Positions 3,234-28,077 of a DNA stretch of 36,742 nt are shown piece after piece (positions within the stretch are counted from its first letter, which is position 1; each line of letters opens with the position of its first letter). The notes beneath the pieces are model-generated. The model saw only the letters and a program-made list of their open reading frames with translations, ran no database searches and was not told the DNA's origin. Source of the stretch: Candidatus Jidaibacter sp. (GTDB lineage: Bacteria; Pseudomonadota; Alphaproteobacteria; Rickettsiales; Midichloriaceae); NCBI GenBank assembly GCA_021299995.1, contig JAJTIA010000004.1, positions 1 to 36,742 on the forward strand, in the 5' to 3' direction. The position numbers were made by a program, and so were the translations under genes.

Positions 3234-3899
3234 TTAATATATTATATCAAATGCTTCTTGATTATATGCATCATTCCAAAAGTGCCACTCTAGCACTGTG
3301 CTTTTATAAAATGCATCAAGCATTAATTCGCATACTTGATCTGAAGAGGATAGTGCTAATTCATCGAATATAGAGATCGCTCTTTCTACGCTTTCAGTAA
3401 ATTCAGGGCTTGCGTATGTTTCTATCCATCTGTTATATGGGTTTTGAATTTTGATATCGCTGCTTTGTGCAATATGCTTACCTACAATGTTATAAACCCA
3501 AAAGCATGGTAGCACAGCAGCTACAGCAACTTCTACAGGTTCTAAAATGCCGCTTTGCAAGAGAAAGCTTGTGTATGCAAGAGTTGCTGTAGTTAGTTTA
3601 TTTGTTGGTTGCAGGTTTAATGTATCCCGAAAAAATGTGTGTACAACCTCTTGCTCTGCAATTAGAGCGCACTCAGAAAATGATAAGAAGTTCTGCATAA
3701 ATTTAAGAGGTGCTTTTGATGCTATCATCGACAAGCTCCTTGCAAAGTAACGCAAATAAACAGTGTCTTGCTCTATGTAATAAGCGAATTTGTCAAGGTC
3801 CAGTGTACCTGATGCCAATTCAGTATTAAAAGGATGATCTTTAATTGGTTGTATAATAGATGCGCATTTTGTTAGTGCTACTTGGGAAAGTTTCTTCAT
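3234..3899 (-). CDS. tenA: TenA family aminopyrimidine aminohydrolase (thiaminase II)
   Basis: TenA enzymes hydrolyse amino-pyrimidine breakdown products of thiamine to hydroxymethylpyrimidine, recycling it for ThiD. The 221-residue protein has the all-helical TenA pattern: HPFNTELASGTLDLDKFAYY near residue 22, YIEQDTVYLRYFARSL near 41, and LPCFWVYNIVGKHI with the catalytic cysteine at about residue 132. It ends with NRWIETYASPEF and a C-terminal Glu-rich helix (VLEWHFWNDAY). It is last in the thiE-thiM-thiD-tenA operon, starting 25 bases after the thiD stop. That placement and the upstream TPP riboswitch support a thiamine salvage role rather than the old regulator annotation. Confidence 0.95.
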   Translation of the reverse strand: MKKLSQVALTKCASIIQPIKDHPFNTELASGTLDLDKFAYYIEQDTVYLRYFARSLSMIASKAPLKFMQNFLSFSECALIAEQEVVHTFFRDTLNLQPTNKLTTATLAYTSFLLQSGILEPVEVAVAAVLPCFWVYNIVGKHIAQSSDIKIQNPYNRWIETYASPEFTESVERAISIFDELALSSSDQVCELMLDAFYKSTVLEWHFWNDAYNQEAFDIIY

Positions 3900-3924: not shown

Positions 3925-4719
3925 TTATAAATATTGCCATAAATGGTGAAAATGATGAACAGGCCCATTACCATGGCCTAAGCTTCTATCTTTGCTAGCT
4001 AGTATTGCTTTTGATAAAAACTCTTTTGCTTTTTTACATGCATCTATAGTGGAAAGTCCTTGTGCAATATAGCTTGCAATCGCAGCAGATAAGGTGCATC
4101 CAGTGCCATGCGTATTTTTAGAGTTGATTCTGATACTAGATAACACTTCTATATGGTTATAAGATATGAATAAATCATCAGAAAAATCTCCATCTTCATG
4201 TCCTCCTTTCAGCAGTACTGCGGTGCATCCTAACTGTAATAGCTTGGACGCTAATACCTCTTTAGCATCATCTCCTGATACTAATGCTTTCGCCTCAGGT
4301 ATGTTGGGCGTGATAATGCTCGCCATAGGTATCATCATTGTTCTTAGTGCGTCTACAGCATCTTCCTTTAATAAAGAGTTGCCACTTTTGGCAACCATTA
4401 CAGGGTCTAAAACAATAGGTATATTGCTAGCATGCTCTTTTAAAAATGCAGATATCAATTCTATAATATCTTTTGAAAACAACATTCCAATTTTAATTGC
4501 ATCTGGCTTAATATCATCAAATATAGCATTTAGCTGCTCTTGTATGCAGGATAACTCAACTGTATAACAGCTCCTTACACCGCATGTGTTCTGTACTGGT
4601 ATAGCAGTGAGAACGGTCATTCCATAAGCTCCAGTGGCAGAGAACGTTTTGAGATCAGCTTGTATTCCGGCTCCGCCAGAGCCATCGAATCCTGCTATAG
4701 ATAAGCATTTATAGTGCAT
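3925..4719 (-). CDS. thiD: Hydroxymethylpyrimidine/phosphomethylpyrimidine kinase
   Basis: Phosphorylates HMP and then HMP-phosphate to HMP pyrophosphate, the pyrimidine half of thiamine. Ribokinase-fold landmarks are clear: SIAGFDGSGGAGIQADLKTF (residues 7-26), TAIPVQNTCGV near 38, VLDPVMVAKSGNSLL near 103, TPNIPEA near 137, LLKGGHEDGD near 169, and the catalytic/anion-hole HGTGCTLSAAIA (204-215, Cys208). Length 264 is normal, and no ThiE fusion is present. The start overlaps the end of thiM by 11 bases, so translation is probably coupled. It serves both salvaged HMP and HMP produced by the adjacent TenA. Confidence 0.97.
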   Translation of the reverse strand: MHYKCLSIAGFDGSGGAGIQADLKTFSATGAYGMTVLTAIPVQNTCGVRSCYTVELSCIQEQLNAIFDDIKPDAIKIGMLFSKDIIELISAFLKEHASNIPIVLDPVMVAKSGNSLLKEDAVDALRTMMIPMASIITPNIPEAKALVSGDDAKEVLASKLLQLGCTAVLLKGGHEDGDFSDDLFISYNHIEVLSSIRINSKNTHGTGCTLSAAIASYIAQGLSTIDACKKAKEFLSKAILASKDRSLGHGNGPVHHFHHLWQYL

Positions 4720-5491
4720 AAATTCCCCTCATTGTTTTGAAATTTGGATGATGTATTTGATCTAGAAAAGCAGACTTAAATGTACCTGGCATATGGTGAG
4801 ATTGTGAAACTATCTCTCCGCAAAGTGTGAAGTAATATGTTGATAGAGCGCTTGCATCAAAAGCATCTGATATCACACTGTGAAAAGCAGCGCATACTGC
4901 GGTTAATGCACATCCCATGCCTGTAATAAGTTGCATGGTTTGAGAACCAAATTCTACATCAACAGATCGCTGTCCATTTGTAATAAAGTCGATTTTACCG
5001 CTTACGATCACAGTTGCGTTGTATTGTGATGCTATAAGATATGCTGGGTTTTTGGCATCATCTGTTGTATCCGATGATTCCACTCCTTTTGTAGATTGTA
5101 TATAGCTTTTGAGTGAAATTATCTCGCTTGCATTGCCTCGTATTATCTGTGCAGATGACATTATATCACGAGCTGCATTAGTTCTGATAGTGGTTGTACC
5201 AGATCCAACTGGATCAAAAACGATTGGTTTTCCATATTGTTTTGCGAGTAGTACTGCTTTATGCGTTAAGCGGATAAAGTTTTTATCTATAGTGCCTATG
5301 TTGATATAAAGGGTTGATGCAATTTGGATAAGCTCTTCGATTTCTTCTTCGCATGCACTCATAATTGGTGCAGCACCTAATGAAAGTATTGTATTTGCAA
5401 CAAAATCTTGTGTGACAAAATTGGTCAAGCATAAAACTAAAGGCTTTTCTTCTCTCAGTACGTTTAAAGTGTATTCTATTTCTTCTATCAT
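4709..5491 (-). CDS. thiM: Hydroxyethylthiazole kinase
   Basis: Phosphorylates the thiazole alcohol so that salvaged thiazole can be joined to HMP-PP by ThiE. Seen in the 260-residue protein: the N-terminal CLTNFVTQDFVANTILSLGA block (21-40), PIVFDPVGSGTT (89-100), IIRGNASEI (116-124), and the C-terminal catalytic TGMGCALTA (190-198, Cys194). Its start codon overlaps the thiE stop in an ATGA arrangement, and its 3' end overlaps thiD by 11 bases. ThiM marks the operon as a salvage route; none of the de novo thiazole genes (thiG, thiS, thiH/O) are in the window. Confidence 0.97.
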   Translation of the reverse strand: MIEEIEYTLNVLREEKPLVLCLTNFVTQDFVANTILSLGAAPIMSACEEEIEELIQIASTLYINIGTIDKNFIRLTHKAVLLAKQYGKPIVFDPVGSGTTTIRTNAARDIMSSAQIIRGNASEIISLKSYIQSTKGVESSDTTDDAKNPAYLIASQYNATVIVSGKIDFITNGQRSVDVEFGSQTMQLITGMGCALTAVCAAFHSVISDAFDASALSTYYFTLCGEIVSQSHHMPGTFKSAFLDQIHHPNFKTMRGIYAL

Positions 5492-6123
5492 CCTTGGGTC
5501 ACTTTTCTTATTGTTGCTAATTTCCGTATTGAAATCTCAGGATGATTTGTGTCATGAAATGCACTGATAGCTGCTATGCCTGATGCGCCTGAGTACATGA
5601 TAGACAGAGCATTTTCTAAGTTTATGCCACCTATAGCTATTATTGGATGATGTGTGATAGAGCTTACTTTTTCTAAACCATCCAGTCCCCAAAATGTCTT
5701 TATGTCAGTTTTGCTATGTGTGTAGAAGATTGCTCCAACACCTATATAATCTATTGGTAAATCATTTGCGAGAAACGCTTGTTGGAGATTATCAATACTT
5801 AGTCCGATAATTTTGTGCGAGCCAAGAAGAACTCTAGCCTCTCTTGGATCTTGATCGGATTGTCCTAAATGTATGCCCGCTGCATCAAGCTCTGTACATA
5901 AAGACACATGGTCATTTATTATTAAAGGGATATTGTAAGCGTCCAATAAATTTTTTAATTGCCTGCCAAAACACAAGAGTTCTTCATATGAGTATGATTT
6001 CTCTCGTAGCTGTACGCAAGTAATTCCAGCATCTATGCAGTTTTTGACGAATTGAAGATAATTGGCAAGGCTTTTAGTCCCTTTGTTTGTAACTAATGTT
6101 AAAAGGTGAGACCTTGCTTTCAT
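5488..6123 (-). CDS. thiE: Thiamine-phosphate synthase
   Basis: Couples HMP-PP and thiazole phosphate to thiamine monophosphate. The 211-residue TIM-barrel protein shows VQLREKSYSYEEL (37-49) for the pyrophosphate site, LIINDHVSL with the metal-binding Asp, GIHLGQSDQDPREAR (83-97), IGVGAIFYTHSKTDI, and PIIAIGGIN near the C-terminus. It is the first gene of the thi operon. The ATG at 6123 is preceded six bases upstream by GAGAGG, a good ribosome-binding site, which is buried in a 7-bp hairpin. The TPP riboswitch lies just upstream, so the operon is expected to be shut down when thiamine pyrophosphate is plentiful. Confidence 0.97.
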   Translation of the reverse strand: MKARSHLLTLVTNKGTKSLANYLQFVKNCIDAGITCVQLREKSYSYEELLCFGRQLKNLLDAYNIPLIINDHVSLCTELDAAGIHLGQSDQDPREARVLLGSHKIIGLSIDNLQQAFLANDLPIDYIGVGAIFYTHSKTDIKTFWGLDGLEKVSSITHHPIIAIGGINLENALSIMYSGASGIAAISAFHDTNHPEISIRKLATIRKVTQG

Positions 6124-6126
6124 AAT

Positions 6127-6151
6127 ATTCCTCTCAATAATAACGAGGAAT
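6127..6151 (-). promoter_or_regulatory. Hairpin covering the thiE ribosome-binding site
   Basis: On the minus strand ATTCCTC (6151-6145) pairs perfectly with GAGGAAT (6133-6127) across an 11-base loop. The 3' arm overlaps the GAGAGG Shine-Dalgarno (6135-6130) six bases before the thiE ATG. This is the layout of a translational expression platform for the riboswitch immediately upstream. A competing pairing that exposes the site when TPP is absent was not worked out by eye. Confidence 0.6.
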
Positions 6152-6202
6152 AAAAAGCATAAGTAACGATGGGTAATAAAAACGCCAAAGTTGACTTGGA
6201 TG

Positions 6203-6300
6203 CTTCACTCTCCCTACGCTAGTGTTAACTAGAATCAGGTTCTAAGGGTTTTTCTCAGCCCTAAAGCAAAATAAATTCGCTAAAGAGCACCCCTGGTGAA
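6203..6300 (-). promoter_or_regulatory. TPP riboswitch (THI element)
   Basis: The minus strand carries the conserved TPP aptamer core in order: GGGGTGC (from 6293), GGGCTGAGA, CCCTT, AACCTGAT, and GCGTAGGGA (ending 6211). The closing P1 helix is TTCAC (6300-6296) with GTGAA (6207-6203). The P5 hairpin CTAG-loop-CTAG is present, and P3 is imperfect. It sits between a strong promoter and thiE, so it controls the whole thiE-thiM-thiD-tenA operon in response to thiamine pyrophosphate. The bound ligand follows from the family, and all hallmark bases are visible. Confidence 0.97.
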
Positions 6301-6315
6301 CTAAAAATCCAAGAT

Positions 6316-6344
6316 AAAATAACTTGCTAATACTACCTTGTCAA
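6316..6344 (-). promoter_or_regulatory. Sigma-70-type promoter of the thi operon
   Basis: On the minus strand a perfect -35 TTGACA (6344-6339) is followed by a 17-base spacer and TATTTT (6321-6316). The predicted start near 6309 is about nine bases before the first base of the riboswitch P1 helix, which is the expected position. Confidence 0.85.
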
Positions 6345-25763: not shown

Positions 25764-26474
25764 TTATATGCTACTCAATACCTTACCGCCTAAAGTAGAA
25801 TTAGAGATTTTGCTAATATCTTCAAGAGGGACTATGTTGCCGTTGACTTCGAACTTCTGCTTTCCTTCCTGAGATACTATTCCGCTTACTCTGCCGCTGC
25901 CATAAGTTTTAACAGCTGCTATGTTGCCGTCCACAGTTTCTGCATTGATAGAGAAGCTGTATATGCCATCAGGCAGATTTTCTGGCTTCTTCCACATAAA
26001 TGCACCAGCGCCTTGTTTTGCTTTCAAAGGTTCGGAGTGTACAACATTGTTAGAAGAATCTCTAATCTGCATAGTTGCGCTTGACGTTGGATCCATTATT
26101 TCGTATCTAAACTCTCCTATATTGTTCTCAACCAAAACGGTGTTACTAGGGTAGGAGACAATCTTATCTATATAGCTCATGTAACTCGCATTCTGACCCA
26201 TCGCAAAATAATTTTTGATGTCTTCTAGATGTCTGTTTGTTTCTAAGCTTTGCTCTACTTCATTAATAGAGAAAATCTGCTGAGTCATCTGGGTCGTATC
26301 CATAGGCGAGAGAGGGTCTTGATTCTTAAGCTGTGCGGTTAACAGAGAGAAAAACTCGCTTTTTTGTCTCTTCACCCTATCAGCTGTTGTTTCTTGTCCT
26401 TTAAATTGCAGCTTATTTTTTTCAGCTAATGTAATATCTTCTATAGAGCTTGTTAGTAGTCTTGCCTGTTCCAT
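25764..26474 (-). CDS. flgD: Flagellar hook capping protein FlgD
   Basis: Scaffold at the tip of the growing flagellar hook that permits FlgE assembly. The conserved N-terminal FlgD segment FFSLLTAQLKNQDPLSPMD continues with TTQMTQQIFSINEVEQ (residues 41-72). The middle and C-terminal part, including PENLPDGIYSFSINAETVDG, matches the FlgD Ig-like/Tudor region. The total of 236 residues is normal. It starts one base after the stop of the fliK-like gene, in the fliK-flgD order common in alphaproteobacterial hook operons. It shows that a flagellum is encoded, although no other flagellar gene is in the window. Confidence 0.94.
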   Translation of the reverse strand: MEQARLLTSSIEDITLAEKNKLQFKGQETTADRVKRQKSEFFSLLTAQLKNQDPLSPMDTTQMTQQIFSINEVEQSLETNRHLEDIKNYFAMGQNASYMSYIDKIVSYPSNTVLVENNIGEFRYEIMDPTSSATMQIRDSSNNVVHSEPLKAKQGAGAFMWKKPENLPDGIYSFSINAETVDGNIAAVKTYGSGRVSGIVSQEGKQKFEVNGNIVPLEDISKISNSTLGGKVLSSI

Positions 26475-26475
26475 A

Positions 26476-28077
26476 TCAAATCACCAAATTTATGTTAGTA
26501 CCGTCTGTAAGAGAGATTTCGCCTGTATACTTTGATTCTATGTTTTCATCTTCTTCGTAAGCAAAGCCCATCTGGGTATTTTTATTATCCTGATCCATTG
26601 AGCTTGTGTTATTTTGATTTTTGTCATGCATATATAGCTCAAGCGAAAAAGGTGAGTCTGCACCTAATTTAGATGAGAGTGCAGCTTCGATCTCACTTTT
26701 CATTGTGTGTAATAAATTAAAAGCCTCTTTGGATTCCACTGCTATAGACACGTTTGTACGCTCAGATGACTTAGCTTGTACTCCTTCGATCTTTGTATCA
26801 AGGTTTTCAAACTTAATTTCTATGCGTCCCAGCTCCTTAGGTTTTAAAATGAACTTGAGCACTTTTTTATCTTCGATCACTGATTTGGATAGATTGAATT
26901 TTATATTTTCCAATACCTCGGATTCTTGTGCAGGTGTCTTAATTAGAGTTTCTTTTTTCAAATCAATAGTTTCAAAAGTAACTTCTTGTACTTTATTCGG
27001 AGAGGTAGTATCAAATTTTACTTCAGATACTCCAACCTCAGCCTGTTCTGTAGCATGAGCGTCATAGTTATAAAATTCTTCTCTTACACCCAAGCCTGTA
27101 AAAAAATCTGCTTGCTGTGACAGAGTATTTTTTATAGTGGTATCTGCGTCTATGGCGGTTTGCTGAAATTGCTGTAATTTCACTGGTGTAGTGCTTTGTA
27201 CTTGATCATGCGGTACTGTTGAATGAATAACTGCTGACTCTGAGTTTATTATATTGTGCTCAAAGTGATTGTCTTCTCTTTCTCCATTTAAATTATCTGG
27301 ATTAGCAGCGTGCTCCATAATCATGAGGCCTTCTTGATATGGTATTAGAATGTTAGTGTTTTCTATTGTCTGAGTTATAATAAGTTTTTCTGTAATGCTA
27401 TTTTCTCCTTCGGGAGTGGTCATCATCTTTTCTGTGATGTCACTTTCTGTTTCAGGAGTGGTCATCATTTTTTCTGTAATGTCACTTTCTATGTCGGGAG
27501 TTATAATAATGTTTTCTGTAATGCCACTTTCTATTAGGTTAGTACTTTGTTCTTGGATATTATAAAGTGGCATCGACATTACAGATGTTGCCTGGTTTAC
27601 ATTTGGTTCTATATGCAAAGTAATAGAGCTCAAGCTTACTGTATCAGCTGCTTTCGTAGTATTTGAGCCAGAAATTTGGGTAATAGTAGAATTATAATAG
27701 CTGGTGTGCGAGTACTCTGACCTATCATCTGTGACAGGTGATAAAGCATCTATGATATTACGTTCTTGAGCTTCTTCTTGTAATTCACCTGCTTTATATA
27801 TTTTGCAAAATTCAGATGAGCTTAACTCTGTATAAGGTGCATCGAATGTCAGTGATGTTGCAATATTGATGATGTGCTGGCTATCTGTTTTGCTATCATC
27901 ATATTGCATTAAGTCAACACCTTCTTGCGCTGTATTCTCTAGCATAGACGCAAATAACATAGGTGTAGTTACATCGCCATCTTCCACAAAAGGCCCAATC
28001 ACATTCATTGACATAACGGATTTAGAGCTGTATTCGCCGAAGCTAAAAAGTCCTTGCATGCTTTGCTTAATATCCAT
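26476..28077 (-). CDS. fliK: Flagellar hook-length control protein, FliK-like
   Basis: Exported molecular ruler that sets hook length and switches export specificity. Only the C-terminal domain is conserved: NLSKSVIEDKKVLKFILKPKELGRIEIKF and the following strand/helix (about residues 395-485) match the FliK C-terminal domain with its L.P.ELGR.E signature. The long N-terminal region (1-390) is Ser/Thr/Glu-rich and low in complexity, as expected of the ruler. It contains four 14-residue repeats (ESDITEKMMTTPET type, 183-238). At 533 residues it is mid-range for FliK. flgD follows after one base. A -24/-12-like element and a TATAAT box precede the ATG at 28077. The gene symbol rests on the domain and the flgD neighbour. 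Confidence 0.88.
   Translation of the reverse strand: MDIKQSMQGLFSFGEYSSKSVMSMNVIGPFVEDGDVTTPMLFASMLENTAQEGVDLMQYDDSKTDSQHIINIATSLTFDAPYTELSSSEFCKIYKAGELQEEAQERNIIDALSPVTDDRSEYSHTSYYNSTITQISGSNTTKAADTVSLSSITLHIEPNVNQATSVMSMPLYNIQEQSTNLIESGITENIIITPDIESDITEKMMTTPETESDITEKMMTTPEGENSITEKLIITQTIENTNILIPYQEGLMIMEHAANPDNLNGEREDNHFEHNIINSESAVIHSTVPHDQVQSTTPVKLQQFQQTAIDADTTIKNTLSQQADFFTGLGVREEFYNYDAHATEQAEVGVSEVKFDTTSPNKVQEVTFETIDLKKETLIKTPAQESEVLENIKFNLSKSVIEDKKVLKFILKPKELGRIEIKFENLDTKIEGVQAKSSERTNVSIAVESKEAFNLLHTMKSEIEAALSSKLGADSPFSLELYMHDKNQNNTSSMDQDNKNTQMGFAYEEDENIESKYTGEISLTDGTNINLVI
27364..27531 (-). repeat. Four 42-bp tandem repeats within the fliK-like gene
   Basis: Four consecutive 42-bp units, each encoding a 14-residue repeat (ESGITENIIITPDI, ESDITEKMMTTPET, ESDITEKMMTTPEG, ENSITEKLIITQTI). 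The middle two differ at only a few bases, suggesting recent duplication. They keep the reading frame and fall in the ruler region. Confidence 0.9.

Follow-up and report, generated by a model that had tools for sequence, protein, structure and literature searches.

A probable TPP-repressed thiamine salvage regulon in a Candidatus Jidaibacter genome, and riboswitch-linked candidate importers in related Rickettsiales

Results and Discussion

The Candidatus Jidaibacter sp. genome (G000) is probably that of a thiamine auxotroph whose salvage regulon, a ThiV-like symporter and a recycling operon, is repressed by TPP; a thiamine pyrophosphokinase (TPK) would activate the thiamine. The parts of this system were observed directly as aptamer matches, intact genes and the gene content of the assembly. 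The operon by itself is ordinary, and such TPP-riboswitch salvage sets are already known. The part worth following is the importer pattern in the relatives, where the TPP riboswitch serves as a tag for candidate importers across the order (SSS symporter, SemiSWEET and MFS carrier) that are not yet recognised as vitamin importers. G000 is the genome carrying the window, the whole stretch of 36,742 nucleotides that was analysed; operon coordinates are window positions, and the operon genes lie on the (-) strand. The same 105 genomes, including G000 and 23 in total of its family, were searched each time.

The thi operon and its leader

The whole unit, from promoter to tenA, runs from 6344 down to 3234 on the (-) strand. 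The sigma-70-like promoter (TTGACA-N17-TATTTT, 6316..6344), which the initial annotation had proposed, is present, matching the consensus at 10 of 12 letters, and 11 bases separate it from the aptamer. The region had 22 promoter-like sites against a shuffle mean of 18.2 (sd 4.2), which is no clear excess, and so the promoter call leans on position and not on score. The TPP riboswitch proposed at the same time was borne out by the RF00059 model, which matched 6193..6304 (-) with 65.2 bits (gathering cut-off 54.3; E 8.8e-11) over model positions 1-105 of 105.

The aptamer is upstream of thiE on the same strand, with 69 bases between it and the thiE start. This stretch (6124..6192, -) is the predicted expression platform, in which folding places the thiE Shine-Dalgarno in a hairpin, AUUCCUC...GAGAGGAAU. 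The hairpin was predicted both with the aptamer helices P1 and P2 forced and without constraint, so that folding does not separate the on and off states. A 7-pair alternative helix was rejected as anti-sequestor, as it costs 1.0 kcal/mol and the ribosome site is still mostly paired. A transcription terminator was also rejected as expression platform, none being listed between aptamer and thiE. The predicted Shine-Dalgarno hairpin makes translational control of thiE by the leader likely, and the leader would bind TPP and switch accordingly between its states.

Four thi genes follow, all of them open, intact and full length by ORF reading. The first, thiE (5488..6123, -), encodes a thiamine phosphate synthase of 211 aa (TIGR00693, 174.7 bits, cut-off 145.1), which can be aligned with solved thiamine phosphate synthases along almost all of its length. 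The thiM gene (4709..5491, -) encodes a hydroxyethylthiazole kinase of 260 aa, supported by NF006830 (271.9 bits, cut-off 180) and PF02110 (230.8 bits, cut-off 27), while its 239.4 bits against TIGR00694 are under the model cut-off of 256.4. ThiM retains in alignment the GxGC cysteine, which we take to be a catalytic-site residue. The HMP/HMP-P kinase of 264 aa is encoded by thiD (3925..4719, -; TIGR00097, 295.9 bits, cut-off 204.95), and the cysteine-type thiaminase II/aminopyrimidine aminohydrolase of 221 aa by tenA (3234..3899, -; TIGR04306, 139 bits, cut-off 130). The LPC cysteine and the C-terminal Glu of TenA, presumably catalytic, both align to B. subtilis TenA.

The thiE and thiM genes overlap by 4 bases, thiM and thiD overlap by 11 bases, and the gap between thiD and tenA is 25 bases; because of these junctions the four genes were read as a single unit. 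A LysE/RhtC-type exporter gene (3070-2432) begins 163 bases past tenA and was excluded from the unit. The compact thiE-thiM-thiD-tenA unit described initially is thus real and intact, but the span 5488-6344 given for it holds the promoter, the aptamer and thiE only.

Missing and present steps in the genome

The G000 assembly comprises 89 contigs totalling 1.43 Mb, with a completeness of 96.76%. The genome search gave no ThiC candidate and three ThiG candidates, none of them passing, and the best Thi4 match was 27.4 bits against a cut-off of 148.3. This agrees with the salvage route proposed at the outset. Since ThiD, ThiE and ThiM are present and ThiC, ThiG and Thi4 were not found, G000 is classed as HMP plus HET auxotroph (variant Ahz), whose last enzyme, ThiL or ThiN/TPK, is here TPK. 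For ThiL there was no candidate in G000 even at a loose first look. Because ThiL was not found, G000 has no known direct step from TMP to TPP, and the operon cannot be called complete, as it had been. The search of the rest of the genome for TPP aptamers led to a riboswitch-linked ThiV-like symporter.

The weak matches to synthesis genes in other genomes need care. Several genomes gave ThiG matches of 18-35 bits, but these are partial, sit in longer frames and were not accepted as ThiG. Some exceed the Pfam cut-off of 23; the window's family accounts for six of them and G000 for none. Thi4 had weak matches in 101 of the 105 genomes and was above cut-off solely in G023, where a TPP riboswitch is followed by a substrate-binding protein, a Thi4-type thiazole synthase and ThiE (L035:2163-4601).

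The TPK gene is outside the window on contig C59 (PF04263, 73.7 bits, cut-off 30.7), and four of five solved relatives of its product are named thiamine pyrophosphokinase. It stands directly after Rieske and cytochrome b-like genes (petA-petB; L087:5062-7523; names from sequence reading), a slot which often holds cytochrome c1. The same order recurs with related genes in G004 and G014.

The search for a TMP phosphatase in G000 covered one protein. In a TPP-riboswitch operon of G085, a HAD-family phosphatase gene (L038:2764-3492) is flanked by the genes for TPK and TenA, and its product is a candidate TMP phosphatase there. The HAD protein had no match in G000 and was rejected for this genome, and its best match in any other genome was 78 bits with 31% identity.

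The ThiV-like symporter and its riboswitch

A second TPP aptamer of G000, outside the window on contig C39 (67.4 bits), sits at the start of a sodium:solute symporter gene of 460 residues. The aptamer match (L055, 6291-6382) overlaps the gene, which starts from 6374, by 9 bases. Because the match extends into the gene in this way, it is conceivable that TPP binding could cover the ribosome site of the symporter gene directly.

The symporter belongs to the SSS family (PF00474, 50.4 bits, cut-off 22.8; TIGR00813, 49 bits, under the cut-off of 184). HMP/thiamin symporters were reported, in passages of PMC11452348, to have Tyr, acidic (TM3) and Phe residues. In the G000 symporter, the segment read as TM3 shows no clear acidic residue, and in its family the segment read as TM6 has a conserved Phe with His or Tyr as the next residue; SiaT is not in the alignment and this mapping is unsure. 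The solved proteins most similar to it in sequence are high-affinity choline transporters, whose substrate is a cation. The invariant Trp of the symporter family aligns with a Trp of the choline transporters, and two SSS outgroups are without it.

TPK and the ThiV-type symporter occur without ThiE or ThiL in six other genomes (G002, G004, G005, G014, G015 and G038), and there no substrate for TPK is apparent other than imported thiamine. Taken together with the choline transporter likeness, the substrate of the symporter would be thiamine. The symporter tree flags long branches, including the row of G000, so its place in the tree is unsure.

Proposed working of the regulon and alternatives

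When TPP is scarce, the two riboswitches would allow the window operon and the ThiV-like symporter to be made. The symporter would bring in thiamine, and TPK would convert it to TPP. Meanwhile, TenA would free HMP from degraded thiamine, ThiD would yield HMP-PP, ThiM would yield thiazole phosphate, and ThiE would join the two products to TMP. An unspecific phosphatase most likely removes the phosphate of TMP and so provides a substrate for TPK; the dephosphorylation is proposed because ThiL was not found in G000. When TPP is plentiful, it would bind the leader and the thiE ribosome site would remain in the hairpin. The missing step from TMP to TPP leaves a bacterial TMP phosphatase to be found.

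Three other explanations were weighed. One is that thiL is present but fell into an assembly gap, so that the ordinary ThiE to ThiL route operates and TPK is an extra. The number of contigs and the incompleteness of G000 speak for it, and in G064 thiL appears split by contig ends, so such losses do occur. G001, of the same family, is a complication for the TPK-only reading, as it keeps both ThiL and TPK and has thiL within the operon between thiM and thiD. But the window operon is unbroken and has no thiL at this position, and the loose first look gave nothing either. ThiL above cut-off and TPK occur together in 1 of 105 genomes, and the 99%-complete G006 and G046 also have ThiE and TPK with no ThiL match. 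An assembly gap is therefore quite improbable. It is less probable again that the operon is a relic, heading for loss, which no longer contributes TPP because its TMP is unusable. TMP is indeed without a known outlet in G000, and apparently decaying copies exist: G007, of the same family, has thiM, thiL, thiD and tenA fragments, some with stops, and its congener G016 has two weak matches of about 20 bits with stops. Against this, the four window genes are open and full length, the aptamer is above cut-off, and TenA and ThiM keep their presumed catalytic-site residues.

The alternative with the most weight, though still unlikely, concerns the symporter, which might import HMP, as proposed for SAR11 ThiV, and feed ThiD and ThiE of the window operon. 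SAR11 ThiV, an SSS symporter behind a TPP riboswitch, is given as a likely HMP importer in passages of PMC11452348, and Phe-then-His in the stretch taken for TM6 of the G000 symporter fits the motif described there. However, HMP alone would be useless in the six genomes which have the symporter and TPK and neither ThiE nor ThiL, and the solved relatives closest by sequence carry choline and have the invariant Trp in common with the symporter. So we prefer thiamine import followed by TPK, with the operon as a recycling branch.

Comparison with known systems

In Staphylococcus aureus, as described in parts of PMC2766623, a TPP-binding leader precedes a tenA-thiM-thiD-thiE operon, and the genome has TPK but no ThiL. 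Its authors considered there that TMP is dephosphorylated first, and reported that a GTPase encoded in one operon with TPK can hydrolyse TMP as one of many substrates. S. aureus, as described in these parts, and G000 thus have in common four enzymes in one unit, a TPP leader, TPK elsewhere and no ThiL found. The gene order is different: tenA is first and thiE last in S. aureus, whereas thiE is first and tenA last in G000. The context of TPK differs too, since it is on a transcript with the TMP-accepting GTPase in S. aureus and after a cytochrome b-like gene in G000.

Variant Ahz comes from a vitamin survey of human-gut bacteria, where, according to sections of PMC6593275, it is defined by ThiD, ThiE, ThiM and either ThiL or ThiN, and was counted in 452 of 2,228 gut genomes. 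The gene content of G000 equals this variant with ThiN/TPK as last enzyme. The survey, by these sections, is about gut bacteria, whereas G000 is a Rickettsiales genome with TenA inside the operon.

The same order as in G000, a TPP riboswitch and then thiE-thiM-thiD-tenA, was found in Legionella rubrilucens (NZ_LNYT01000003.1, L144), a gammaproteobacterium which was compared with G000 at the thi locus only. Its ThiM is 47% identical to that of G000 and falls in the same supported group.

In SAR11, according to parts of PMC11452348 and PMC2704228, the ThiV gene of a thiamine auxotroph encodes an SSS symporter and follows a TPP riboswitch. G000 is alike in having a sodium:solute symporter gene behind a TPP aptamer and in being a probable thiamine auxotroph. 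The SAR11 strain studied in these sources uses HMP and cannot use thiamine. G000 has TPK, and the symporter genomes without ThiE point to thiamine.

TPP riboswitches, TPK and importers in relatives

The operon is nothing unusual in its group: TPP aptamers were matched in 24 of the 105 genomes (23 above cut-off), and ThiE was above cut-off in 61. All 28 aptamers of these 24 genomes were read with their neighbours. They stand before thiE-thiM or thiM-thiE operons (G000, G001, G010, G017, G020, G021, G028, G048, G064), before a SemiSWEET with TPK or thi genes (G046, G076, G085, G089, G103), before an SSS symporter (G000, G006, G014 with 28.7 bits and below cut-off, G015, G038) and before an MFS carrier (G003, G006, G013, G058, G073). 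Others precede the binding protein, Thi4 and ThiE (G023), ThiE alone (G085) and a ThiE-like protein of 77.5 bits (G103). The aptamer of G011 had no recognised gene after it.

TPK was identified in 14 of the 105 genomes and ThiL above cut-off in 58. Both occur in one genome (G001), TPK alone in 13, ThiL alone in 57 and neither in 34, counts that are uncorrected for kinship. Of the 14 TPK genomes, eight carry a ThiV-type symporter and another five a SemiSWEET; none of them combines the two, and the remaining one, G100, lacks both. Three genomes without TPK also have one of these candidate importers, G012 the symporter and G050 and G076 the SemiSWEET. Wherever TPK and a SemiSWEET occur together, in five genomes, the two genes are adjacent.

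These counts depend on thresholds set after the scores were seen (at least 400 bits for the ThiV-type symporter, at least 90 bits for the SemiSWEET clade). Importer profiles were made for these two types and were seeded from loci fetched for a riboswitch or TPK, so that 5 of 9 symporter genomes and 6 of 7 SemiSWEET genomes were seeds. The non-seed matches are G002, G004 and G005 with TPK, and G012 and G050 without it. The Fisher p of TPK against either importer, 5e-13, is a description and not a test, because the profiles were seeded, the genomes are related and the thresholds are post hoc. A single family supplies eight of the nine genomes with the symporter, and several carriers are incomplete (G002 80%, G005 83%, G103 80%, G012 67%, G050 80%). 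The ThiV count also leaves out a partial match in G020 (160 bits) and the symporters of G008, G010, G017, G021 and G022 (363-390 bits), which form their own clade (99/98) in genomes without TPK; if this five-genome clade is counted as ThiV, the symporter is in 8 of 14 TPK genomes and 6 of 91 others.

The SemiSWEET-like genes directly behind a TPP riboswitch encode 85-106 aa (L041:6799-7056, L036:6801-7061, L038:4117-4395, L033:337-636, L040:5144-5464), and in the five genomes they precede TPK or thiE. In G001 the SemiSWEET gene (L096:2558-2911) adjoins TPK, and no riboswitch was found there. The group profile matches solved SemiSWEETs (E 7e-16); the one member scanned, that of L038, had 55.1 bits, under the NCBIfam cut-off of 80. 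Among the papers listed for SemiSWEET and thiamine, one mentions in a sentence that a TPK gene adjoins a SemiSWEET gene in Legionella cherrii. A joint mention of SemiSWEET and TPP riboswitch was not found in the open-licence PMC literature.

The MFS carriers behind a TPP riboswitch in G003, G058, G013 and G073 (L045:2131-3318, L048:2195-3454, L043:2158-2751 and L053:2133-3317, respectively) are nearest to the 2A0106 group; those scanned match TIGR00883 best, all below cut-off. The naming in G013 is by likeness of a frame of 198 residues cut by the contig end. Five genomes have an aptamer without ThiL or TPK above cut-off (G003, G013, G058, G064, G073). In G064 this goes with a ThiL that appears divided over two contigs, while for the other four neither ThiL nor TPK was matched at E 0.001, and the MFS carrier follows their aptamer. 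ThiE was not found in G003, G013 and G058, and in G073 it is behind the MFS carrier; G006 has the MFS carrier together with TPK. As G003, G013 and G058 are also without ThiE, a TPP carrier is the simplest reading of the MFS protein, which makes it a candidate TPP importer. A reconstruction, in parts of PMC5615194, concluded that Rickettsia must import TPP and that the usual thiamine-uptake transporters are not found there.

From these patterns we tentatively speculate, with less than even confidence, that TPK in Rickettsiales pairs with either of two exchangeable importers, a ThiV-type symporter or a 3-helix SemiSWEET, and that members without a TPP-making enzyme import host TPP by a riboswitch-controlled MFS carrier. 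If this is true, some SemiSWEETs would be vitamin B1 transporters and not sugar transporters, and it would explain how members without a TPP-making enzyme get TPP.

Origin and decay of the operon

The possibility of transfer, raised initially and to be judged by trees, was supported, mainly by ThiM. A careful ThiM tree was made with 41 rows picked from 92, leaving out the long-branched Brevinema row (L163). In this tree G000 joins first G001, of the same family, and next G065; these belong to a group of 14 (support 100/98) that also includes Legionella, Francisellaceae, an alphaproteobacterium (40-19) and further members of the window's order. ThiM of genus g11, of the same family as G000, was placed elsewhere. 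Monophyly of the family (7 rows) was rejected with p-AU 0.0003 and that of the order (13 rows) with 0.001; these values are too kind, because a quick tree of all 92 rows had been seen beforehand.

In a quick ThiD tree of 58 rows, G000 likewise fell into a group of 14 (SH-aLRT 100), whose other members include Legionella, Francisellaceae and Brevinema. ThiD of g11 adjoins this group (19 rows, 99), and for this reason two origins within the family rest on ThiM. The loci for the trees were picked by ThiM similarity, which favours the neighbours of ThiM. The grouping of ThiM and ThiD with Legionella and Francisellaceae suggests transfer of thi genes, and exchange among bacteria living in host cells is a fair inference.

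The thi set seems to have been lost by decay in the genus of G007 and G016, where the fragments mentioned above are at L134 (G007) and the two weak matches, to thiE and thiM, at L135 (G016).

The GenBank entry CAMDPW010000002.1, titled Rickettsia typhi, is identical to contig C2 of G048 over the 7,113 bases compared (L142). Because G048 has a full thi operon, this label looks wrong.

Rickettsiales are a mostly host-dependent order. Elsewhere in the window (25764-28077), two genes resemble those for flagellar hook-capping (FlgD) and hook-length (FliK) proteins, named by reading, and they sit in a small genome of this mostly intracellular order.
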